Assembly: GCF_900094935.1 (NCBI RefSeq)
Contig: NZ_FMBA01000004.1
Location: forward strand, 1 to 64,000
Length of the DNA stretch: 64,000 nt
Direction of reading: 5' to 3'
DNA from: Gilliamella intestini
GTDB taxonomy: Bacteria > Pseudomonadota > Gammaproteobacteria > Enterobacterales > Orbaceae
This document shows positions 34,682 to 63,090 of this stretch, piece by piece. The translations under genes and the position numbers were made by a program. A model generated the notes under the pieces. That model saw nothing but the letters and a program-made list of their open reading frames with translations, ran no database searches and was not told the DNA's origin. Position 1 is the first letter of the stretch, and each line of letters opens with the position of its first letter.

Positions 34682-36775
34682 TTATCCTAAAATAAAATTT
34701 TTTAAAATTGTCGGGTAATTAGATAATTCGTTACTAACAATTTGATACAAATGAGCATTGTCAGAATAATATCCATTATATTTCCAGTAAAGTAATTGTC
34801 CACATAACCAACCTCCTCGGTGAATCATAGGATATATTTTCTCATCCCAAGGTTCTTCATTTGACCAAATCAAAGGAAAATAAATCTCATGATCGTATCC
34901 TGGAGCATGTAATATATTTCCCAATTCTTTAACTTCTAGACTAGTAGGAGAACAAATGACTTGAGCTAAAGCTCCTTTTGCCGTATTTACATTAATATAA
35001 TCAGAATTAATTCCGAAAACATCTTCATTTTTAACCCATTTAGATATAACCGAATGCAATCCCTTATAAAATCTTTTTAAATTCACTACTTGTTCTTTAA
35101 GATTATCTTTTTTTTCTTTGAAAATAGGAATATATTTTCCCATTGATTCAGTAAAACCAATAACAGATTCATGATCTGCGACATGAAGATTCTCTAATAT
35201 ATTAATGCTATTTTTCATTAAGAAAATTTTATTAGGATCATTGAATTCACTAAAAAATGCAGCATCCATTAATCCGTTGTAAAATATTCGGCCAGTAGCC
35301 AAACCATTGTGTAATCCATAATAAAACCCAGATATTTTTTCTTTAATACCATGATTTTCTCTAAACAAAGTTAGAGCTTGCTGTAAAGTACCTGACCATC
35401 CCAAATCAACTATTGCTATTTTTTTAGAGCTAAATATACCTTCTTGATCATAGTATTGATAGGAATTTTTGTATTGTTCTTCAAATTGAGGTAGTAGTAG
35501 AGGAAGTAAATCATGACCAAGATAAAATTTAAAATCATCCAATAGTGAAAATTTAAATTTGCTATCCAAATCACCAAATTTATTAACAAAATTATTTACG
35601 TCAATATCAGATATATTAATTTTTAATCTTGTTAGAACGTCTCTATTAGTTTGCCCTTCAACTATATTATGGTTAGAAAGAAAAGTTAAAGATGCCTCAG
35701 AAAGCTTGTTATGTTTTTGACATTCGATGTAACACTGGCTATATCCAAGAACAAGTCTAGATATATATAAATAACTTGATGTTACACCACATAGTTTATC
35801 AAAATTAAATTCTTTCCATAAATTGTAAATAATTTGTGCATCACGAGAGCAAAAGTAAACATGTTCAATTTTATTTTTTCTAACGTGATCATTCAACCAT
35901 TGAAGAAAACTATAAATAAAAAAAGAACCACAAGAAATCCCGAAAACAAACCAGAAATCTTTATATATTACCTTATCTGTTAATAAAATCATTTTTTTTA
36001 TCAAAGAAAAAGGAATAATATTTGTCGACAATTGCCCACCTAATCTTCTTTCTGTTATGAGAGAATTATACCAAATAGTATCTATACCGTCTCTTTTAGG
36101 CACCTCAACATCTGAGTAATAGTTATCACCAATATGTAGGATTTTTTGATTGGCATAATCATCAAGGACGTTTTGCCAAATAGTACCGTGATTTTTAGTC
36201 TTTAATAAATTACTTGATAAATATAATTTATCAAAAGATGAAACCCCAACTTTGCTTAACATTTTTTTTATTGTTTCTTCATCTAAATACATATCAGAAA
36301 CTAAAATAATTTTTTTATTTTTTTCAAAAATTTTATTTATCAAAAATAGATTATCTAAAGATGGGACACAATAATTTATTTCGATCATCATTTCCGTTTG
36401 CTTTGCTTCTTCAATAACATCTTGATACTCAGGATAAGTTATTTTCAATTGTTCATAAATATTGTCTAAAGTAACCTCTTCTATATTTTGTTGATAGGCA
36501 ATATCTCTAGCAATTTTTTCCGATTCGAATCTAGCAACAGCAAAACTAGCACAAAAATGACCTTTTTCGATTAGACATTTCTCTACAATTGAAAAAACAT
36601 CGATAGGACACTCGACTAACCTTGTCAAAATAGTGTCAAAAATATCAAATGAAATCACTTCATAGCATTCAATATCCTTTAAAACTCTCTCAATATAGGT
36701 ATCGTCATATGTTTTGGCATTTTGAAAAAAATAATTCCTAGTAGAACTTAATAAATTAATAATATCTGTTTTCAC
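34682..36775 (-). CDS. Large HAD-like protein of the polysaccharide locus
   Basis: 697 aa. Residues ~38-250 form a HAD domain with all motifs intact: SFDIFDTIL (nucleophile Asp), VSDMYLDEETIKKML and HIGDNYYSDVEVPKRDGI. The remaining ~430 residues (HVYFCSRDAQIIYNLW, AIVDLGWSGTLQQAL, GFYYGLHNG) form the C-terminal region seen in large HAD-like proteins of O-antigen and capsule clusters; its activity is unknown to me. Start is GTG 36775 with AGGT upstream. It is first in the transcript running down to rmlD, and its HAD part is an intact counterpart of the degenerate one in the 960-aa protein. Confidence 0.8.
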   Translation of the reverse strand: MKTDIINLLSSTRNYFFQNAKTYDDTYIERVLKDIECYEVISFDIFDTILTRLVECPIDVFSIVEKCLIEKGHFCASFAVARFESEKIARDIAYQQNIEEVTLDNIYEQLKITYPEYQDVIEEAKQTEMMIEINYCVPSLDNLFLINKIFEKNKKIILVSDMYLDEETIKKMLSKVGVSSFDKLYLSSNLLKTKNHGTIWQNVLDDYANQKILHIGDNYYSDVEVPKRDGIDTIWYNSLITERRLGGQLSTNIIPFSLIKKMILLTDKVIYKDFWFVFGISCGSFFIYSFLQWLNDHVRKNKIEHVYFCSRDAQIIYNLWKEFNFDKLCGVTSSYLYISRLVLGYSQCYIECQKHNKLSEASLTFLSNHNIVEGQTNRDVLTRLKINISDIDVNNFVNKFGDLDSKFKFSLLDDFKFYLGHDLLPLLLPQFEEQYKNSYQYYDQEGIFSSKKIAIVDLGWSGTLQQALTLFRENHGIKEKISGFYYGLHNGLATGRIFYNGLMDAAFFSEFNDPNKIFLMKNSINILENLHVADHESVIGFTESMGKYIPIFKEKKDNLKEQVVNLKRFYKGLHSVISKWVKNEDVFGINSDYINVNTAKGALAQVICSPTSLEVKELGNILHAPGYDHEIYFPLIWSNEEPWDEKIYPMIHRGGWLCGQLLYWKYNGYYSDNAHLYQIVSNELSNYPTILKNFILG

Positions 36776-43849: not shown

Positions 43850-45553
43850 CTATTTCACAATAATTGATTTACCTCGACCTCTAATATCTGATACGGCTTC
43901 GGGTTTATTATTGTTAATTCTTATGGCTTGAATATCACCGCTAAAATCTTGTTGTTCAAAATGATATCCCATCTGTTTAAGTTTGTCTTTTAACTCCTCT
44001 GGTACTTTATTTTGAAAACGCTCAATAAAGATAAGATTCGTTGGTAATAGTTGATGATGATAACGCGGAGCATCCATTGCCGCTTTTAATGACATATGAT
44101 TATCAAAAACATTTGTAACAACTTGGAATATTGATGTAAAAATCCTTGAACCGCCCGGTGTACCAATAATCATTGCAACATCATTATTTTTAATAAAAAT
44201 ACTCGGCGTCATAGAAGATAACGGGCGTTTATTGGGCTCTATCGCATTAGCATCTTTACCAACCACGCCAAATTGATTAGCAACACCTGGTTTACTACTA
44301 AAATCATCCATTTCATTATTTAGAATGATACCAGTACCTTCTATTACAACAGCAGATCCAAACCAACCATTTAGCGTGTAAGTATTTGATACCGCATTAC
44401 CCCATTTATCGACAATTGAAAAATGGGTTGTCTGTAATTTTTCACGATTATTATCTAAACCGGGTTTAACTTGTTCAGTAACAGATATCGCTTTTGGATT
44501 AACTTGCTTCGCTCTTTCTGCAACATAATTAGGATCAATTAACTTCTCTACAGGCACAGTAATAAAATCAGGATCTCCCATATATTCAGCGCGATCAGCA
44601 AAAACACGTTTTTCGATTTCGGCCAATAAGTGAATATATTGTGCTGAATTTACTTTTACATTTTTAAAATCTTTAGCAAGGTCTTGTTTCATTAATAATA
44701 GCTGAATCAAACCAACGCCCCCAGAACTTGGTGGTGGTGCTGTAACAATTTGCATATCTTGCCAACTAGCAACTAGAGGAGTACGCCATTTAGCTTGATA
44801 ATTTGCCAGATCACTTTCGCTAATTAGTCCATCATTTTCTTTCATTTGTTGGGCAATTAATTTAGCTGTTTCGCTTTTATAAAAACCGTCACTACCTTGA
44901 TTTGCAATACGCTCTAATACTTTGCCAAGCTCAGGTTGTTTAAATATTTTTCCTTCTTGCATTGAACCAAAGTATTGCTTAAAGTGGCCATTAGCAGGTG
45001 CAAGTTCTTGTGCTTCTTGATAACGTTTAACTAGTTGTTTGTCTACAACAAATCCTTCATTGGCAAATCGAATAGCTGGTGCTATAACCTCTTTCCACGG
45101 TAATTTACCAAAACGTTGATGCACAGCCCACATACCTGCAACGGTCCCAGGAACGCCCGATGCTTTGTGAGAATATAAACTTAAATTAGGGATCACATTT
45201 TTATGTTCATCAAGATACATATCTTTATCAGCTTTGCTTGGTGCAACTTCTCGATAATCAATAAAATAAGGCTTACCGTCCATCCAAAGGGTCATAAAAC
45301 CACCCCCTCCAATGTTACCCGCTTCAGGATAAGTTACAGCAAGCGCAAAGGCGGTAGCCACCGCAGCATCGGCAGCATTGCCTCCTTTTTTTAATATTTC
45401 TTGTGCAGCAATGGCACCATAATAATCGGGCGAAGCAACTGCACCAGCTTCTAATTTTTGTTTTATGTTTTCGACAGCAAGTACTTGTTGGCTTATCAGT
45501 AAAAATACAATAAAGTAGCAATACTTTATCAACTTACGTTTAAGATAAAACAT
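43850..45553 (-). CDS. ggt: Gamma-glutamyltranspeptidase
   Basis: Periplasmic N-terminal nucleophile hydrolase that cleaves or transfers the gamma-glutamyl group of glutathione and related peptides, self-processing into two subunits. 567 aa from ATG 45553 with AGGAGG six bases upstream; the ATG-less extension to 45592 is dismissed. Signal peptide YFIVFLLISQQVLA, then GAVASPDYYGAIAAQEIL, GGNAADAAVA, the autocleavage Thr in SNTYTLNGWFGS and the GSRI block (IGTPGGSRIFTS). Convergent with the rplI duplicate. Confidence 0.96.
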   Translation of the reverse strand: MFYLKRKLIKYCYFIVFLLISQQVLAVENIKQKLEAGAVASPDYYGAIAAQEILKKGGNAADAAVATAFALAVTYPEAGNIGGGGFMTLWMDGKPYFIDYREVAPSKADKDMYLDEHKNVIPNLSLYSHKASGVPGTVAGMWAVHQRFGKLPWKEVIAPAIRFANEGFVVDKQLVKRYQEAQELAPANGHFKQYFGSMQEGKIFKQPELGKVLERIANQGSDGFYKSETAKLIAQQMKENDGLISESDLANYQAKWRTPLVASWQDMQIVTAPPPSSGGVGLIQLLLMKQDLAKDFKNVKVNSAQYIHLLAEIEKRVFADRAEYMGDPDFITVPVEKLIDPNYVAERAKQVNPKAISVTEQVKPGLDNNREKLQTTHFSIVDKWGNAVSNTYTLNGWFGSAVVIEGTGIILNNEMDDFSSKPGVANQFGVVGKDANAIEPNKRPLSSMTPSIFIKNNDVAMIIGTPGGSRIFTSIFQVVTNVFDNHMSLKAAMDAPRYHHQLLPTNLIFIERFQNKVPEELKDKLKQMGYHFEQQDFSGDIQAIRINNNKPEAVSDIRGRGKSIIVK

Positions 45554-45965
45554 TTTGCACCTCCTAATTAAAGTATTATTTATCGTACCCACTTAACAGC
45601 AAAATACATGAATCACATTAATAAATCCTGCAATAATCAGTTAAGGGGAATCATCAATATAACATAGAAAATAAAAATATTGAGTAAATATTGATCAGCC
45701 AGCCACAATGCAATGCTTTATCCTTACTTGTCATTTACATAGAGCACCAATAATTGCTAATACCTGAAATAAGATGATCAGTTAGTTTTACTCAATAAAG
45801 GCTGATAATTTAATGCAATCGATGATAATAAAACTCATCTATATAGAGATGCCTATCTATCTTATTTGATGAACATAAGTAGGAAATAGTTAAACTTTGG
45901 TGAAAATGTTATTAAGAAGTGTCAAATATGATGTATTTTCTTAATAAAGTTAGCGATAAAAACAT

Positions 45966-54863: not shown

Positions 54864-56144
54864 TTACCAATTAGATAGGTTTGAATACTTAATTTTAGTC
54901 GTATTATTTTGCTTTTTCTGCGCTGCTGATGAAACCGCACCAATAAATACAACATCACTTGATGAATTTAATGCAGTTTCAACCGAATCTTGAATTACAC
55001 CAATGGCAATACCAATTCCAATTACTTTAGCCGAGATTTCATTCGGTATACCAAACATACTGCAAGCAACTGGAATAAGCAGTAACGATCCCCCAGCAAT
55101 GCCCGATGCACCACAAGCACACACTGAAGTTACAATACAAAGTAATACCGCAGAATAGATATCAACATGTATACCGGCACTAACTGGCATTGAGTTCACT
55201 GTTGCTAGTGTTAACACCGTAATGGTAACAGCTGCACCCGACATATTAATTGCCGCACCGAGTGGCACTGCAACGGTATAGGTATCTTCATCCATATTAT
55301 ATTTTTTACAGATTTCCATATTGACAGGAATATTGGCAGCTGAGCTACGTGTAAAAAAAGCAGGGATCGCGCTTTCTTTTAAAGCGGTAAATACGAGTGG
55401 ATATGGGTTTTTTCGCATAACTAGATAAGCGAGTAATGGGTTGATAACCAATGCAACAATCACCATGCAAGAAACTAATACAATTAATAAATGCGCATAT
55501 TTTTCGATCTCATCAAAACCTGTTTCGGCTAATGTTGAAGCAACAAGCCCAAAGACGCCTAAAGGCGCAAATCGGATAATAATTCTGACAATAAACGAAA
55601 TAGCATAAGACAAATCATTCATCATCGTTTTAGTGGTTTGACTGCTATGTCTTAATGCCAAGCCAATACCAACTCCCCACACAATAAGGCCAATATAATT
55701 TGCATTCATCAGCGCATTAATTGGATTGTCGATCATTTTGCCTAGTAACGTTTTTAACACCTCGGTAATACCATTAGGCGGAGAAAGCTCAAGGTTATTT
55801 AGTGTGTCACCAAATGAAATTTGCGATGGGAATAAAAAACTGGCAACGGTGGCTAATAATGCAGCTAACATCATACCAACAAGATAAAGAGTAATTAACG
55901 ATCTCATATTCGCTTGTTTACCGTGTTGGTGATTTGATATTGAAGAAATTACTAAAATAAGCACAAGAAGAGGGGCAACTGATTTTAGGGCGTTAATAAA
56001 GAGATCGCCTAATAATGACATATTTAGTGCTGTATTTTTAGATACATCAGCAAGTATAGCGCCAAATATTAAACCTAATAAAATCTGTAATACTAACCCA
56101 ACTTTAAAATAAAAACGGACCAGAGGATGAGATGAGTGTGCCAT
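54864..56144 (-). CDS. sstT: Serine/threonine:sodium symporter SstT
   Basis: 426-aa inner-membrane carrier of the dicarboxylate/amino acid:cation symporter family. [43 protein letters not shown] contains the Ser-rich hairpin and the NMxG motif; [25 protein letters not shown] forms the second hairpin region. Length and sequence match E. coli SstT (414 aa). GGAAAGTAGA precedes the ATG. Confidence 0.95.
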
Positions 56145-56334
56145 TCTACTTTCCTATTTATTAAAGATAATTCTAAAACCTTAACATATTTGAATAATAA
56201 ATTTATATAAAAAATCATGATAATAATCTTTTTTTATATATTACTTCAAGTAATTACTAAGTTTTATTATTCATTAAAAACTGTCTTGACTTAAGCATCA
56301 TTTAGTCATTTACTATCAAAAAATGGCTAAACAT

Positions 56335-56375
56335 AAACAAAAAACTAGTATTATTATTTTAATATAATACTAGTT
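56335..56375 (-). terminator. Terminator of the pxp/biotin carboxylase operon
   Basis: AACTAGTATTAT (56343-56354) pairs over twelve bases with ATAATACTAGTT (56364-56375), loop nine; the minus strand continues TTTTTTGTTT. It lies 65 bp after the operon's last stop codon. Confidence 0.85.
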
Positions 56376-56439
56376 ATTAAAGCTTAACCATTAGGCTGTA
56401 GAAGTGCCCAAATTGGGATTAATTGAAGCTAATCAGGTG

Positions 56440-58203
56440 CTAGTTAATTTCAGCAACGACATCACCTGCATTAACATAATCGCCCTCTTGGACTGTTTTG
56501 GTTACTGTGCCACTTCGGTGTGCAATAATTTGTACTTCCATTTTCATGGCTTCCATAATACCAATGGCATCACCTTCGTTTACATTTTGGTTATTATCAA
56601 TTAACCATTTAAAAAGGTTACCAGATACAGGCGATGGTACAAGCGAATCGGATAGTACGTCATTAGCAGAAGTTGAAGTCGATGAGATAACGTTTGCTTC
56701 GGTTTGCATAGCAAATCTAGCAAATAGGTTTGCTGGTAAGCCCAGTTTACAGCGTTTGCCGTCAATTTCGATAACGGTTTTTATTAATGCTTCTTCTTTG
56801 GCAGGAATTTGCCTTTTTGCAGGTGTGATTGTGGCATTTAATTCGGTTTCAATCCAACGTGTATGCAATTTAAAATCATCACAAAAATCAGAATGTTCAA
56901 TAACCGCACGATCAAATGGCAACACACTAGCAACCCCTTCAATTGTAAATTCTGCTAATGCACGGCGAGCTCTAGCAATAGCTTGTTGTCGATTATGACC
57001 AACTACAATCAATTTTGCCATCAGTGAATCAAACGTGGCAGGAATTGTTGATCCCACCGTTACGCCACTGTCCACGCGAACACCTGCTCCTAATGGTACA
57101 TCAAAGCGTGTAATAGTACCAGCTACAGGTAAAAAACCATTAGCTGCGTCTTCGGCATTGATACGAAATTCGATTGCATGAGCTTTAGGTTTTGGTGTTT
57201 CATCAATGCTTAATGGCAAACCTTGAGCGATACGCAGTTGTTCAACAACAAGATCAATGCCTGTTGTTTCTTCTGTTACAGGATGTTCTACTTGTAATCG
57301 TGTGTTGACTTCTAAAAATGATAATTTGCCATCTTGGCTGAGTAAAAACTCAACTGTCCCTACGCCTACATAGTTTGCTTTAGCGCAAATATCAATCGAA
57401 GATTGAATAATTTGCTGTTCTAATTGCTCAGTTATAAAAGGTGCAGGAGATTCTTCAATTAATTTTTGATTACGTCGTTGTAATGAACAGTCACGTGTAC
57501 CGACCACAACAATATGACCTAATTTGTCGGCAATAACTTGTGCTTCGACATGTCTAGGATTATGTAAAAACTGTTCTAAAAAGCACTCTCCACGCCCAAA
57601 AGCGGCAGTTGCTTCACGCACGGCAGAATGGTAAAGCTCTTCTACTTCATCTATTTGCCAAGCAACTTTTAAACCTCGACCACCACCACCAAATGCGGCT
57701 TTTATAGCAATAGGTAAACCATGGGCATGGGCAAATTCGACTGCTTCTTTAGCGTTTTTAGCAGGTTCTTTTGTTCCCACAACCAATGGCGCACCCACTT
57801 GCAATGCAAGTTGCCTTGCTTTGACTTTGTCACCTAATATTTCAATCGTTTCGGGATTGGGTCCAACCCAAATTAACCCAGCATCTTGCACCGCTTTTGC
57901 AAATTCAACACGTTCAGATAAAAAACCATAACCAGGGTGCACCATCGTTGCTCCTGATTTTTTAGCTATAGCGATAATTTTATCAATATCTAAATACGTT
58001 TCGCTTGGCATATTGCCTGCTAGTCCATAAGCTTCGTCGGCCATTTGTACATGAAGTGCGTTAATATCGGCATCAGCATAAATCGCAACAGATAAAAATC
58101 CCATATCACGACAAGCACGCACAATGCGTACGGCAATTTCGCCACGGTTAGCAATTAATACTTTATGCATTATTGTTTGATTATTTTCAGACATGATCAA
58201 CAT
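56440..58203 (-). CDS. Biotin carboxylase-BCCP fusion protein
   Basis: About 587 aa. N-terminal biotin carboxylase of the AccC type (KVLIANRGEIAVRIVRACRDMG, IKAAFGGGGRGLKVA, EVNTRLQVEHPVTEE, FRINAEDA) runs to about residue 450; after a linker, a biotinyl domain ends the protein with the biotin Lys in IMEAMKMEVQI. It would load CO2 onto its own biotin. There is no fused carboxyltransferase; the partner is probably the KipI-KipA protein encoded just upstream, whose gene overlaps this one. Start ATG 58203 (MLIMSENN) has GGGAG upstream; ATGs at 58194 and 58170 are alternatives. This is not the AccC of fatty-acid synthesis, which lacks a fused BCCP in this class. Confidence 0.88.
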   Translation of the reverse strand: MLIMSENNQTIMHKVLIANRGEIAVRIVRACRDMGFLSVAIYADADINALHVQMADEAYGLAGNMPSETYLDIDKIIAIAKKSGATMVHPGYGFLSERVEFAKAVQDAGLIWVGPNPETIEILGDKVKARQLALQVGAPLVVGTKEPAKNAKEAVEFAHAHGLPIAIKAAFGGGGRGLKVAWQIDEVEELYHSAVREATAAFGRGECFLEQFLHNPRHVEAQVIADKLGHIVVVGTRDCSLQRRNQKLIEESPAPFITEQLEQQIIQSSIDICAKANYVGVGTVEFLLSQDGKLSFLEVNTRLQVEHPVTEETTGIDLVVEQLRIAQGLPLSIDETPKPKAHAIEFRINAEDAANGFLPVAGTITRFDVPLGAGVRVDSGVTVGSTIPATFDSLMAKLIVVGHNRQQAIARARRALAEFTIEGVASVLPFDRAVIEHSDFCDDFKLHTRWIETELNATITPAKRQIPAKEEALIKTVIEIDGKRCKLGLPANLFARFAMQTEANVISSTSTSANDVLSDSLVPSPVSGNLFKWLIDNNQNVNEGDAIGIMEAMKMEVQIIAHRSGTVTKTVQEGDYVNAGDVVAEIN

Positions 58204-59794
58204 CACTCCCTTCAAATTCTTTAAATATCCCTATCGGATTAAATTTTATTTTGGCATTAACTGGTATTTGACCTGCCAAATCTAAATGATAATTACATAC
58301 TGCACCAATAACAGGATAACCACCCGTTAAAGGGTGATCATTCAAAAATAGTACTGGCTGCCCATTAGCAGGAATTTGGATTGCGCCGATACAAGTTCCT
58401 TCACTCTGTAATTCTTGGTGTTTTTCACGACTTAATGGTTGTTCACCAGATAAGCGTAATCCAATACGATTAGAAGCTGGCGTTACTTGCCATAGCTGTG
58501 AAGTAAGAAGCTCTATTGCTTGCTGAGTAAACCAATCAGTACGCGGCCCAAGCACAATATCTAAAACAACCACATCCTCACTAGTTGGGTAATTGATAGC
58601 AGGGGTTTCAGTTAATGGAATTGGTTTTAACGCATTTGTTTGCTTTATTGCCAATGTTTGCCCTGCTTTTAGTGGCAATGGACCTACTTGTGCAAGGGTA
58701 TCAAACGCACAACTGGTTAAAATTGGCGATACTTGAAAACCACCACGCACCGCTAAATAACTACGAACGCCACATTTTACATTACCTAAACGGATAATAT
58801 CACCTACTTCTAATTGAATTGGCCGATACATGGGCGAAGTATAGGTTTCACCTTGTGAGGTGGTGATGGTGATATCGCATACAGCTCCTGTTACTGCAAC
58901 TAACATGGGGCGGTTTATTTGTGCACTAAAACCGCCTTGAGTAATTTCTAACGCTGGTTCATTAATTGAATTACCTAACACTCGGTTAGCGCTGTGTAAT
59001 GCGCTTTTATCCATCGCTCCCGATTCAGAAATACCTAACGCCGCCTGCCCAATTCGACCATTGTCTTGAAACAATGTTTGCAATCCTGTCGTTAATACTG
59101 TTATATCTTGTTGCTCAACAAGGTCTTCTTGTTTTTTAGCAGCTGATAAATGAGCAGGTAAATGATAAGTTGTTTTCGATTGACTTACATCAATAAAATG
59201 AACCCGAGTACCCGGTTTGAACAGCGCTGGCTTATCACGATAGATGTCCCAAACTGCGGTGTCAGTAATACCAATTAGTTGCCAACCACCAGGACTTGCT
59301 TGTGGGTATACACTACTAAATTCTCCTGCCAAAGCAACCGATCCTGCCGGAATACGAACTCGAGGCGACTTGCGACGCGGTACATTAAGCTGAGCCGTTT
59401 TAGATACCATATAAGCAAATCCAGGAGCAAAGCCACAAAAAGCCACTTGATACTCGTTATCAGTGTGCCTTGCAATGACTTCGGCAACCGTTATACCAAG
59501 ATAGTCTGCCACTTGAGCTAAATCTTCACCATTATAGCGAACAGGTATTGTTACCAATTCGCCAGATTGTATAACAGTTGCCGAAATATCTAATTGAGCA
59601 ATCTGCTTAGCAAGTATATTAGCACTGGTTACAATGGGGTTATAACGGATTAATAAGGTTCGTGCTGCTGGGATTATTTCATTGATATGCCAATCAGCAA
59701 TAACACCTTGAAGCACATCAGTAAGTGCCATAGTTTGCTCAAGGCTGTTTAATTCTACGATAAACGCATCGATATTAACGGGTAAAAATCGCAT
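58187..59794 (-). CDS. pxpBC: Fused 5-oxoprolinase subunits B and C (KipI-KipA)
   Basis: 535 aa. Residues ~1-215 match KipI/PxpB (FLPVNIDAFIVEL, TIPVRYNGEDLAQVAD, GFAPGFAYM, ASPGGWQLIGIT); residues ~235-535 match KipA/PxpC (GRIGQAALGISESGAMDKSALHSANRVLGN, YLAVRGGFQVSPIL, LRLSGEQPLSR). E. coli PxpB and PxpC are separate proteins acting with PxpA on 5-oxoproline; here they are one chain. The same two domains form the carboxyltransferase half of urea carboxylase. GAGGTAC precedes ATG 59794. Its stop overlaps the biotin carboxylase start by 17 bp. Confidence 0.92.
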   Translation of the reverse strand: MRFLPVNIDAFIVELNSLEQTMALTDVLQGVIADWHINEIIPAARTLLIRYNPIVTSANILAKQIAQLDISATVIQSGELVTIPVRYNGEDLAQVADYLGITVAEVIARHTDNEYQVAFCGFAPGFAYMVSKTAQLNVPRRKSPRVRIPAGSVALAGEFSSVYPQASPGGWQLIGITDTAVWDIYRDKPALFKPGTRVHFIDVSQSKTTYHLPAHLSAAKKQEDLVEQQDITVLTTGLQTLFQDNGRIGQAALGISESGAMDKSALHSANRVLGNSINEPALEITQGGFSAQINRPMLVAVTGAVCDITITTSQGETYTSPMYRPIQLEVGDIIRLGNVKCGVRSYLAVRGGFQVSPILTSCAFDTLAQVGPLPLKAGQTLAIKQTNALKPIPLTETPAINYPTSEDVVVLDIVLGPRTDWFTQQAIELLTSQLWQVTPASNRIGLRLSGEQPLSREKHQELQSEGTCIGAIQIPANGQPVLFLNDHPLTGGYPVIGAVCNYHLDLAGQIPVNAKIKFNPIGIFKEFEGSDVDHV

Positions 59795-59956
59795 TAAGTA
59801 CCTCGAAATATGATCAACATCCAATCACTAACAATACATATTTTATATTGTTTGGTCATATTAAAGGCCAAGTTTATAGCCCACTTGGTAAAGTGTTGTC
59901 TAATCATACTTTTATTTTTTTATTAATTTGATTAATTTTTCAAAATATTAACTAAT

Positions 59957-60739
59957 TTATTTATTGTTACTTTTAGCAAACGAGGCAATATTAATGCCAT
60001 TTTGTTGTAGTTTTTGTCGCACTTTTTGTGCCATCGCTAAAGCGCCAGTGCTATCGCCATGGACACAAATTGATCCTGACTCAATACGCACAAATTGCCC
60101 TTCAATAGACATCACGCCACCATCATTAACCAATTGCAACATACGATCGGCTACTAAATCAGGATCGTGCAATACAGCACCTGCTTCTTTACGCGAAACT
60201 AATGTACCATCAGCATGATACGCTCTATCAGCAAACGCTTCGGCAACTACGCTTAAGCCACTTTCTTTAGCCCAGTGAATCAATCTTGAACCAGCAAGAG
60301 CAACCAAAATCAGCGTCGAATCAACCGCACAAAGCGCATCAATCACCGCCATTGCTTGACGTTTATCGTGTGCAATAGTGTTATATAATGCGCCATGTGG
60401 TTTAACATAACTTATTTTGGTGCCGATTGATGTGGCTAATCCTTTAAGTGCACCAATTTGATAAATCACATCAGCGGTTAACTCATCAGTTGCTATATCC
60501 ATATTGCGACGACCAAAACCGACTAAATCAGGATAACCGACATGAGCACCCACTTCAACATTATTGGCTTTGGCCGCTTTCAATGTTTTTAAAATACCGG
60601 CTGGCGAACCGGCATGAAATCCACAAGCGACATTGGCACTGCTAACAACTTTTAGCATTGCCTCGTCATTACCCATTTGCCATTGACCAAAGCTTTCGCC
60701 AAGGTCACTGTTTAAATCAATACATTTGGTGATTGTCAT
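59957..60739 (-). CDS. pxpA: 5-oxoprolinase subunit A (LamB/YcsF family)
   Basis: 260 aa. [58 protein letters not shown] and [16 protein letters not shown] are the family signatures. With PxpB/PxpC it cleaves 5-oxo-L-proline using ATP. AGAGGACAAT precedes the ATG. It follows the transporter by 8 bp and is followed by pxpBC after a 162-bp gap without a clear terminator. Confidence 0.95.
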
Positions 60740-60747
60740 ATTGTCCT

Positions 60748-61983
60748 CTATTTTAAATCGTTAAAAATAGTCGCAACCGACATTATGCCCATATACCAAG
60801 TCATTGCGCACACTATCACACCTGAAAATAACAACCATCTTGGATAATGATATCCAGACATAAGATCAGCTCGTCGCCAACCAATATACACAAAAATAGT
60901 CAAACCAAGCGGTAACACTAAACCATTAAAACCACCGGCAAAAACAAGTAATGATACAGGTGCTGTTCCCATAGCTAAATAGATCACAAGCGAAACAGCA
61001 ATAAAGATAATGGTGGCAAATTGGCGTTGTCTATCTGTAATTGTTCGTTTAAAAGGTGTAATAAATGTCATTGAAGTATAAGCGGCCCCAATAACACTAG
61101 TTATGGCTGCCGCCCATAAAATTAAACCAAAAAGGCGTAATCCAAGCTCGCCCAAGGCAGCCTGAAAGGCTTGCGATGCGGGATTGGCTGCATAACTTGA
61201 AATATCAATTGTCACACCACTTGCCACGACCCCTAAAATCGCTAAAAATAAAATGTAACGCATTAAACCAACAACGACAATTCCTTTTGTGGCCGCGCCT
61301 GAAACATAATCAATATGCTCTACACCAACCATACCTTTATCAAGTAAACGGTGAGCGCCAGCATAAGAAATATATCCCCCAACGGTTCCACCAACAATAG
61401 TTGTGATTGAAGCAAAATTGATATCACTCGGAAACACGGTTTCTTTTAATGCTTCACCAACTGGAGGGTGCGATGCAAATACCACAAATAACGTTAAAAC
61501 AATCATTAACAAACCAAAACCTATCATTAAACGATCAATAAAATTGCTGGCTTTACGCGACGAAAAGATATAAACCGCTAAAAGTGCACTAATTGCTCCG
61601 CCCCATTTAGGATCAAGCCCAACAAGTGCATTTAAACCTAATCCTGCGCCGGCAATATTACCAATATTAAACACTAACCCACCAAATATAATTAGTACCG
61701 CTAGCACATAACCACTAAATGGAATTGTGGCATTGGCAATGTCTGACGAGTTCATTTTGGTTAACGCAACCACTCGCCAAATATTTTGCTGAACAACAAA
61801 ATCGATAATAATAGATGCTAAAATACCAAAGCCAAAGGCAGTACCAAGCTTAACGGTAAACGTAGCGGTTTGAGTAATAAATCCTGGACCAATTGCCGAT
61901 GTCGCCATTAAAAAAATGGCACTGATTAATGAAGCACGCTGATTTTTAACAAAAGCAACGGTACTACTGCTATGATTTTCCAT
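60748..61983 (-). CDS. NRAMP-like transporter, YcsG type
   Basis: 411 aa, about eleven hydrophobic helices, of the NRAMP-related family commonly encoded beside pxpA/ycsF (YcsG in B. subtilis). The usual first-helix metal motif DPGN of true Mn/Fe NRAMPs is replaced by [16 protein letters not shown], and [18 protein letters not shown] follows, so the substrate is probably not a divalent metal. From context it may import 5-oxoproline or a related acid. GAGGAG precedes ATG 61983 at eight bases. Confidence 0.85.
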
Positions 61984-62268
61984 ATGCATGTCTCCTCTTA
62001 ATTTATTTCTATAATGCCGTAGTAAATATAATTATATTCAATGTTATCTATAAGAAATAACCATGTCATAACTTTAACAAATTTTGATAAATGCAAATTA
62101 ATATCATTACTACTTTTTACGCCAAAAACTAATAAAAATAATTATAATGATTCATCATCCTGTAGTAATAAATTTATAATGTTCTAAAAACTTGGCATGC
62201 ACAAAATTGTATACAAAAATGTCTTTATATAATACGTATATCTTTAATTTATATGGCTAAAGATAATA

Positions 62269-62316
62269 ATTTTTGTAAAAAAGTTTCAGAAAATACTACG
62301 TTTCAGTATAAAACAA
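62269..62316 (+). repeat. Copy E of the dispersed ~47-bp repeat
   Basis: TTTTTGTAAAAAA, then GTTTCAGAAAATACTACG, then TTTCAGTATAAAACA. Located in the 651-bp gap 61984-62634, in which I see no gene or transposase remnant; the only other structure is the inverted repeat GTTTCTCA (62549-62556)/TGAGAAAC (62572-62579), which may follow the prepilin peptidase transcript. Confidence 0.7.
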
Positions 62317-62634
62317 AAACATCAATCTTATACATAATTATAATTTAATGTAATAATTTTTAAAAAATTTTTATTATATCTTTGCGTAAAGCAAGAATAA
62401 TTATCTTTTAAAACAAAATGGGGTATTAGTGTATAAGATTTGCTTGTAATCAAGCAATCACTTATTTTCTATACATTTAGGTTTACATATACTGTAATTA
62501 TCGTTCAGGTATAAGGTATTATTAGTTAATGTCATATAAGAAAGGAATGTTTCTCAATCATTTATTTAGAATGAGAAACACTAATACTGATTATCAAAAT
62601 ACACATATCATTAAGGTGAATGTTGAGTTTACTA

Positions 62635-63090
62635 TTACAATATAACCTTAAATAGTGTAATTGATGTTAAAAAATAGCTTGCGCTTATTGCAATTCCATA
62701 GGGTAATGTAATACCGCCTTCGGGTTTCTTTAAACGTTTATATATAATTACAAAGATTGCTAGTGGCAAACCAAAAAATGTAATCACAACCAAGAAAAAC
62801 AGAACGCTGCTTACAGGAATTGTTATTAAAAGTGCCGTAATTAATTTAATATCCCCCGCACCGGCTAATCGGCAATAAAACATAAGCAAACCACAGATTA
62901 AAAATATTGCTGATGCACCATAATTTAGCTGTCCTTGACCAAACAAAAAGTTTAAAATAGCCAGAATGAATATTATTATGACGATTTTATTTGAGATTAT
63001 TCGGTACTTCCAATCCGTATAACAAGAAACTAACAAACACAGCCAAATCGCCAAAATAATAATATCATTAATTAATCCTTGGTTAATCAT
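62635..63090 (-). CDS. A24 prepilin peptidase, short (CpaA/TadV-like)
   Basis: 151-aa membrane aspartic protease with about five helices and no N-terminal methylase domain. The two catalytic Asp are in CYTDWKYRIISN and AGAGDIKLITALL. Such enzymes cleave type IV prepilins, including Tad/Flp pilins. Its start overlaps the RCC1-repeat gene by 1 bp (TAATG), implying coupled translation. Other pilus genes are probably beyond the right edge. Confidence 0.9.
   Translation of the reverse strand: MINQGLINDIIILAIWLCLLVSCYTDWKYRIISNKIVIIIFILAILNFLFGQGQLNYGASAIFLICGLLMFYCRLAGAGDIKLITALLITIPVSSVLFFLVVITFFGLPLAIFVIIYKRLKKPEGGITLPYGIAISASYFLTSITLFKVIL

Follow-up and report, generated by a model that had tools for sequence, protein, structure and literature searches.

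The closest described counterpart of the locus analyzed here is the mum operon of Acinetobacter baumannii, published in 2016, whose genes mumT-L-U-H-C are given as an NRAMP transporter, mumL, mumU, an 'allophanate hydrolase' and a biotin carboxylase (PMC5050338). In that paper, MumH was named allophanate hydrolase by homology and MumC urea carboxylase, operons with at least four of the five genes were counted as mum, conservation extended to Proteus mirabilis and Agrobacterium tumefaciens, and mumR occurred only in Acinetobacter. Growth with urea as the only source of nitrogen required mumC there, and mumT loss impaired growth on urea (PMC5050338). A second relative is PxpABC, which opens 5-oxoproline. 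In Bacillus subtilis the PxpA, KipI and KipA homologues share one operon with ycsG; YcsG is reported to import Mn2+, and polarity may account for the influence it has on 5-oxoproline use (PMC10448178). The third is urea carboxylase, whose general base is Lys1605 in the Kluyveromyces lactis enzyme (PMC5770610). The locus described here lies on contig NZ_FMBA01000004.1 of Gilliamella intestini, positions 1 to 64,000 of which were analyzed (hereafter the window). It comprises an Nramp-like transporter, PxpA, a KipI-KipA fusion, and a biotin carboxylase carrying its own biotinyl domain (biotin carboxylase-biotin carboxyl carrier protein, BC-BCCP).

Open reading frames and Pfam matches place these four genes, in the order just given, in one row on the minus strand, confirming the arrangement proposed by a first-pass annotation made from the letters alone. 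The gene set is already known: it matches the mum operon, with four of the five genes in the T-L-U-H-C order and U missing in the window. Its biotin link is real and conserved, and very probably functional. We consider it highly likely that KipI-KipA and BC-BCCP form one carboxylase; given one carboxylase, 5-oxoproline would be the probable substrate. Taken jointly, one carboxylase with 5-oxoproline as its substrate, the operon can be read as a putative biotin-coupled 5-oxoprolinase with somewhat better than an even chance. The first-pass annotation had suggested either a complete biotin-dependent carboxylase or a CO2-coupled 5-oxoprolinase. The former proved plausible, given strict linkage, intact biotin carboxylase (BC) residues with a biotinyl motif, and a solved complex of relatives; the latter is the best substrate reading.

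The pairing of the two genes was followed across 80 named loci, which are the best 80 of at least 561 confirmed relatives and represent the nearest ones, not a random sample. BC-BCCP is located directly downstream of KipI-KipA on the same strand in 80 of 80, its similarity starting −39 to 175 bases from the end of the KipI-KipA frame. Because all of these relatives keep both genes adjacent on one strand, the pairing is not due to chance. Hosts include Providencia, Proteus, Xenorhabdus, Photorhabdus, Pseudomonas, Agrobacterium, Shinella, Variovorax and Cupriavidus. PxpA is found upstream in 78 of the 80 loci and an Nramp-like gene in 44. A homologue of a PF07286 (D-Glu_cyclase) protein is present in 45 loci (blastp; Pfam was run on two), and a position test placed it between PxpA and KipI-KipA in 43 of them. 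Distances among KipI-KipA and among BC-BCCP sequences correlate (r = 0.92 over 77 loci), as expected for a co-inherited unit, although species history alone yields a correlation too.

Whole genomes were sampled within the window's phylum only. Among 24 same-genus genomes, the window's included (three assemblies less than 90% complete), the fusion occurs in 15, BC-BCCP (at least 75% identity) in the identical 15, and neither in the remaining 9 (Fisher's test, p = 7.6 × 10−7, uncorrected for kinship or physical linkage). Two of the nine genomes (G004 and G010) carry a PxpABC without biotin carboxylase (BC-less), with KipA 36–39% identical; most simply, the genus would have two interchangeable versions of a single function, each standing in for the other. 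Loci L144 (6188–10434) and L145 hold the BC-less PxpABC of two same-genus genomes, with DUF969 and DUF979 adjoining in L144 (Pfam).

A residue signature was derived by comparing 94 BC-BCCP-linked sequences (one place counted twice, L015 = L062) with 27 BC-less PxpBC pairs and 8 urea carboxylases. BC-less here means that the sequence fetched, reaching up to about 8 kb to either side, contained no BC (27/27); the repeat loci (L028–L032) as well as L050 and L053 were dropped from the first BC-less set. Eighteen positions set the linked clade apart: its members match the window at 15–17 of them, BC-less loci at 0–4 (except L035, at 9), and urea carboxylases at 5. Tree support for the linked clade was 0.86, and 0.95 after three plasmid-record sequences were added. 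Since these positions had been chosen on the first sample, the 12 located in KipA were tested on a second, for which 299 genomes spread evenly over the phylum were surveyed, 102 of them with a match. Of its 140 rows (counted by hand), 93 non-urea-carboxylase places were used; the others were as long as urea carboxylases (38), came from genomes that had served before (6) or were partial (3). No KipA sequence among the 93 reached 99% identity to any in the first set, and the ten loci that proved to carry the signature were 56–96% identical to their nearest relatives there. The signature told BC-BCCP-partnered loci apart: all 12 positions were present in 10 loci, and a fused BC-BCCP lay beside 10 of 10, versus 0 of the 83 others. 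Eleven of these 83 hold a BC gene without biotinyl motif in the stretch.

The window's BC-BCCP is most similar to two solved structures, 5mlk (669 bits) and AccA3 (667 bits), the next match scoring 457 bits. The motif EVNTRLQVEH and R351, which we take to be the BC catalytic residues, and the biotinylation motif EAMKME are conserved at 98% or above; EAMKME was found in 79 of the 80 named loci, the remaining one (L133) being cut by a contig end. The predicted parts of a biotin-dependent carboxylase, namely BC residues, biotinyl lysine and a carboxyltransferase (CT) of known fold, are encoded in the same gene row. A complex of relatives is represented by PDB entry 9yx5 (released 2025-11-26), entitled as the Mycobacterium smegmatis long chain acyl-CoA carboxylase complex with MSMEG_0435-MSMEG_0436 bound, and containing the AccA3 subunit; the evidence is the entry title and chain contents, and a literature search found no paper for it. 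MSMEG_0435-0436 carry 15 of the 18 signature residues and are sister to the window's KipI-KipA clade with support 1.0. A KipI-KipA pair of this type therefore binds a complex containing a BC-BCCP subunit. AccA3 is described as being shared with acyl-CoA carboxylases (PMC11001197). The two-part biotin carboxylase is well supported because strict pairing, the second-sample signature and this complex coincide.

The AlphaFold2 model of the fusion (predicted local distance difference test, pLDDT, 87.5) matched known CT relatives: 3mml_C (Z 38.2, 1.7 Å over 287 residues), TTHA0988 3ore_A (Z 35.8, 3.3 Å over 461), Escherichia coli YbgJK 5dud_A (Z 34.7, 1.8 Å over 276) and urea amidolyase 5i8i_A (Z 33.7, 1.9 Å over 296). 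In the VIA listing, a re-examination of Foldseek's own matches, rows past the CT relatives were middling and unused. For TIGR00724, a less specific domain model ('5-oxoprolinase/urea amidolyase family'), the fusion exceeds the cut-off (255.7 versus 230.2 bits). The single-chain urea carboxylase model TIGR02712 gave 502.1 and 149.9 bits against a cut-off of 1303.85. PxpA, PxpB and PxpC homologues all occur in the single gene row.

5-Oxoproline is favored as substrate because PxpA accompanies 78 of the 80 loci and a D-Glu_cyclase homologue 45, and because genus mates lacking the biotin version carry BC-less PxpABC. Enzymes of the D-glutamate-cyclase family interconvert D-glutamate and 5-oxo-D-proline. 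It is favored further because no HyuA-type 5-oxoprolinase was found in the window genome and because the clade has more conserved positions in common with PxpBC: by hand count, 29 are common with BC-less PxpBC and not with urea carboxylase, and 11 vice versa, an excess to which the greater distance of the urea carboxylases is expected to contribute. A search of the open-access literature, which leaves subscription literature uncovered, found no earlier report of a biotin-dependent 5-oxoprolinase. In the proposed pathway, BC-BCCP would charge its own biotin with CO2 at the expense of ATP and bicarbonate. KipI-KipA, as the carboxyltransferase half, would take this CO2 and carboxylate the lactam nitrogen of 5-oxoproline. 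PxpA would then hydrolyse the activated ring to N-carboxyglutamate, which would decarboxylate to glutamate. Import of Mn2+, for use by PxpA or BC, or of 5-oxoproline is the probable role of the Nramp-like protein. Co-transcription, binding between the window's two proteins, the carboxyl-transfer reaction, its substrate and the sequence of events are what we infer here from the observations above.

Several points weigh against a biotin-coupled 5-oxoprolinase. BC-less PxpABC is reportedly active on 5-oxoproline (Niehaus, 2017), and biotin is therefore not needed by the family as such. Activity and interaction of the window proteins are predicted only, and 9yx5, known from its title and chains, represents binding, not catalysis. 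The fusion scores under the NCBIfam equivalog cut-offs for PxpC (NF045499, 182 versus 500) and PxpB (TIGR00370, 132.9 versus 145.55). PxpA was not found in the examined flank of 2 of the 80 loci (L132 and L135), and the urea-carboxylase general base is replaced by Arg. BC-less PxpBC is reported to hydrolyse ATP and PxpABC to open 5-oxoproline (PMC8453981), and growth of A. baumannii on urea is lost with mumC deletion and kept with mumH deletion (PMC5050338). With MumH as the carboxyltransferase partner, the mumH result is left unexplained and counts against a simple enzyme of two parts; in that strain, a different carboxyltransferase might be loaded by MumC. In favor of a joint enzyme, deletion of mumH or mumC each raised calprotectin sensitivity in A. 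baumannii (PMC5050338), a shared phenotype that such an enzyme would give.

The alternative that survives best, though still unlikely, has the pair carboxylate, through biotin, a related lactam, imide or amide (D-5-oxoproline, hydantoin or another cyclic amide) opened by PxpA. The KipI-KipA clade departs from BC-less PxpBC at many fixed positions, and the D-glutamate-cyclase-family homologue in 45 of 80 loci may hint at the D-form. Arguing the other way, BC-less PxpABC in two genus mates without the biotin version suggests the same substrate; HyuA had no match, having been sought in the window genome only, while other cyclic-amide genes were never sought around the loci.

There is a rather slim chance that KipI-KipA and PxpA are an ordinary biotin-free 5-oxoprolinase and that BC-BCCP serves another carboxyltransferase or regulation, merely being co-transcribed. 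The activity reported for BC-less PxpABC (PMC8453981) would fit this, as would the differing urea phenotypes of mumC and mumH (PMC5050338) and five loci whose PxpC has Lys or Arg at position 505 and whose stretch also holds a separate BC gene, in one case 3.6 kb off and on the opposite strand. It is opposed by the one-to-one pairing in 80 named loci, 10 second-sample loci and 15 same-genus genomes, by the solved complex of relatives, and by the fact that no acyl-CoA-type carboxyltransferase was found among the four operon genes and SstT.

For urea, the position of Lys1605, located by counting in the alignment, is occupied by Arg150 in the window, by Arg in 97/97 clade and 30/30 BC-less sequences, and by Lys in 8/8 urea carboxylases. 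In the second sample it is Arg in 10/10 signature loci and in 71 of 72 loci without BC, and Lys in 6 of the 11 whose BC is separate. The first-pass annotation had named the absence of urea-carboxylase CT catalytic residues from the fusion as evidence against its reading; they are absent as regards the general base, while many other CT core positions are common to both. No amidase-signature (PF01425) protein was found in the genome, a family matched in 12 of 14 control genomes, and therefore no allophanate hydrolase was found; nor was urease alpha. AtzF occurs in 1 of the 80 loci, at the far edge of L109, which is a weak control because atzF adjoins only one (L280) of two genuine urea carboxylase loci, the other being L279. 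Urea carboxylase identity was set aside on the missing amidase-signature protein, the missing urease alpha and the Arg at this position. The urea pathway published for mum, in which BC-BCCP (MumC) and KipI-KipA would carboxylate urea to allophanate, thus has the slimmest chance: despite the mumC and mumT phenotypes (PMC5050338) and a modeled fold shared with the urea carboxylase CT domain (Z 33.7), the mumH deletion mutant still grows on urea (PMC5050338), neither allophanate hydrolase nor urease was found in the genome, AtzF is confined to one locus, and Lys1605 is Arg in all 97 clade and 10 second-sample sequences, leaving urea unsupported as the substrate.

Extending the biotin-coupled 5-oxoprolinase beyond the window gives a tentative generalization, to which we assign somewhat less than an even chance: mum-type operons of alpha-, beta- and gamma-proteobacteria would encode a 5-oxoprolinase spending biotin-bound CO2, the lactam being N-carboxylated and then hydrolysed, as a lactam counterpart of urea amidolyase, and BC-less PxpBC may use carboxyphosphate instead. 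If true, the published urea assignment of mumH and mumC needs revision, which would correct the reading of a pathogen operon studied for manganese starvation and urea use. One chemical logic, to carboxylate an amide nitrogen and then hydrolyse, would serve two nitrogen-salvage systems, and the KipI-KipA pair bound to the mycobacterial acyl-CoA carboxylase would be easier to explain.

BC-less PxpBC mostly has Lys or Arg where the linked clade has Val505. In the first set, Lys/Arg505 occurs in 24 of 30 BC-less loci versus 0 of the 97 + 8 + 5 biotin-linked ones; the window has Val505, as do 4 of the 30 BC-less loci. The second sample shows a BC gene in the stretch of 5 of 69 Lys/Arg505 loci (L195, where it lies on the other strand 3.6 kb off, L224, L229, L235 and L249), and no BC gene in 8 of 24 other loci (Fisher's test, p = 2.3 × 10−8). 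Because of the five second-sample exceptions, position 505 is a trend, not a rule; as a strict marker of biotin use it was rejected, with exceptions in both sets. The pair of L035/G079 (L142) has Val505 and 9 of the 18 signature residues, no BC in 19 kb, and branches beside the clade. Its BC-BCCP may be encoded elsewhere, an arrangement that M. smegmatis might share.

Separate biotin genes adjoin other KipI-KipA lineages on a Rhizobium plasmid (L155), in G130, G251 and G240, and on a Lactiplantibacillus plasmid. The last, from Lactiplantibacillus plantarum (L149, 4869–7231), has a row of genes for PxpB, a carboxyltransferase family protein, a biotin/lipoyl protein and, where the record ends, a biotin carboxylase, with no PxpA in the stretch. 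Klebsiella pneumoniae plasmid pINF361.2 (IncFIB; L154, 2159–8329) carries a full five-gene cluster, with a divalent metal transporter, LamB/YcsF, a putative hydro-lyase, a urea amidolyase family protein and an ATP-grasp protein. KipI-KipA matches on other Klebsiella, Kluyvera and Enterobacter plasmids score nearly the same. The 4.09 Mb P. mirabilis record L148 (NZ_OL790812.1) is listed as a plasmid and is probably a chromosome.

Table 1. Positions of the operon genes and their parts in the window.
Feature	Position	Strand	Basis
BC-BCCP (biotin carboxylase with C-terminal biotinyl domain; MumC-like)	56440..58215	-	Pfam Biotin_carb_N, CPSase_L_D2, Biotin_carb_C, Biotin_lipoyl
EAMKME biotinylation motif	56536..56553	-	sequence; Lys558 = expected biotin site
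Overlap of KipI-KipA end and BC-BCCP start, 17 bp	58187..58203	-	sequence
KipI-KipA fusion (PxpB-PxpC type, MumH-like; proposed carboxyltransferase)	58187..59824	-	Pfam CT_C_D 193.5 bits, CT_A_B 268.5 bits
KipI (CT_C_D) half, residues 11-202	59219..59794	-	Pfam
Arg150, aligned with urea-carboxylase general base Lys1605	59375..59377	-	alignment
KipA (CT_A_B) half, residues 263-529	58238..59038	-	Pfam
Loop DHPLTGGYPV, residues 496-505, within the BC-BCCP-linked signature	58310..58339	-	alignment
PxpA (LamB_YcsF 336.5 bits; proposed ring-opening hydrolase)	59957..60739	-	NCBIfam NF003814 375.6 bits, cut-off 226
Nramp-like transporter (MumT/YcsG-like)	60748..61989	-	Pfam Nramp 68.3 bits

The extent of the overlap depends on the BC-BCCP start: ATG at 58203, probably the true one, gives the 17 bp of the first-pass annotation, which holds on that choice, and TTG at 58215 gives 29 bp. 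Translation of KipI-KipA is predicted to start, probably, at ATG 59794 (MRFLPVN), because similarity in many relatives begins near there. Searches of the 2.52 Mb genome (113 contigs) found a single fusion copy, a single PxpA, and a separate AccC-type gene on another contig. For the four genes against six same-genus genomes, the ratio of nonsynonymous to synonymous rates (dN/dS) was 0.045–0.131 in 23 of 24 comparisons and not computable in one, BC-BCCP and Nramp being compared in part only. In the window's Nramp-like protein, GPGF and GGTVGG stand where canonical Nramp metal sites carry DPGN and a Met motif; across the 44 loci and the window, G34, P35, F37 and 200–205 are conserved.

Upstream of the row lie genes of the prepilin-peptidase and RCC1 types. 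Directly downstream of BC-BCCP is the serine/threonine transporter SstT (54864–56144), as in both named Gilliamella loci, which share about 75% of the fusion and have identical gene order. The ggt gene, suggested by the first-pass annotation as a source of 5-oxoproline, is indeed present (43850–45592), its link to the operon being proximity only, at about 11 kb from BC-BCCP. An Rfam scan over 56000–62700 gave no match, and promoter and terminator patterns were at chance level. Elsewhere in the window, an open reading frame of 697 aa (34682–36775), sharing its region with an RgpF-type glycan synthesis gene, matched no Pfam family at E 0.001.

Compared with urea carboxylase/amidolyase (3va7, 5i8i), the locus shares BC, CT (same two subdomains) and BCCP modules and many CT positions. 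It differs in being split over two polypeptides, with C_D ahead of A_B in the CT part, a BCCP joined to BC, Arg where urea carboxylase has Lys1605, and no allophanate hydrolase found in the genome. PxpBC loci with separate BC genes (L155, L182, L183, L184 and L197) resemble it in the BC gene adjoining the KipI-KipA pair, with a BCCP gene in four of five (not L184) and PxpA in three (L155, L184 and L197); they differ in the separate BC, in an identity of 25–28%, and in Lys at the general-base position (four of five).

Like PxpABC of B. subtilis and E. coli, the window has PxpA, KipI and KipA homologues in one operon; unlike it, KipI-KipA is fused, 27–47% identical to sampled BC-less PxpBC and under the PxpB and PxpC equivalog cut-offs, and BC-BCCP is added. 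MSMEG_0435-0436 with AccA3 (PDB 3mml, 9yx5) is similar in that its KipI-KipA pair is sister to the window's clade and AccA3 is one of the two closest BC-BCCP structures, KipI and KipA being separate chains there. The window agrees with the mum operon in gene types and in their order, to the extent that PMC5050338 names them. It differs in lacking a mumU-like gene, with no PF07286 match in the genome, and the MumH-type proteins examined here consist of CT domains with no amidase domain, A. baumannii sequences not being among those compared. P. mirabilis L148 has the window's four-gene layout, and Agrobacterium L082, L083 and L085 have the five-gene layout with a mumU-like gene.

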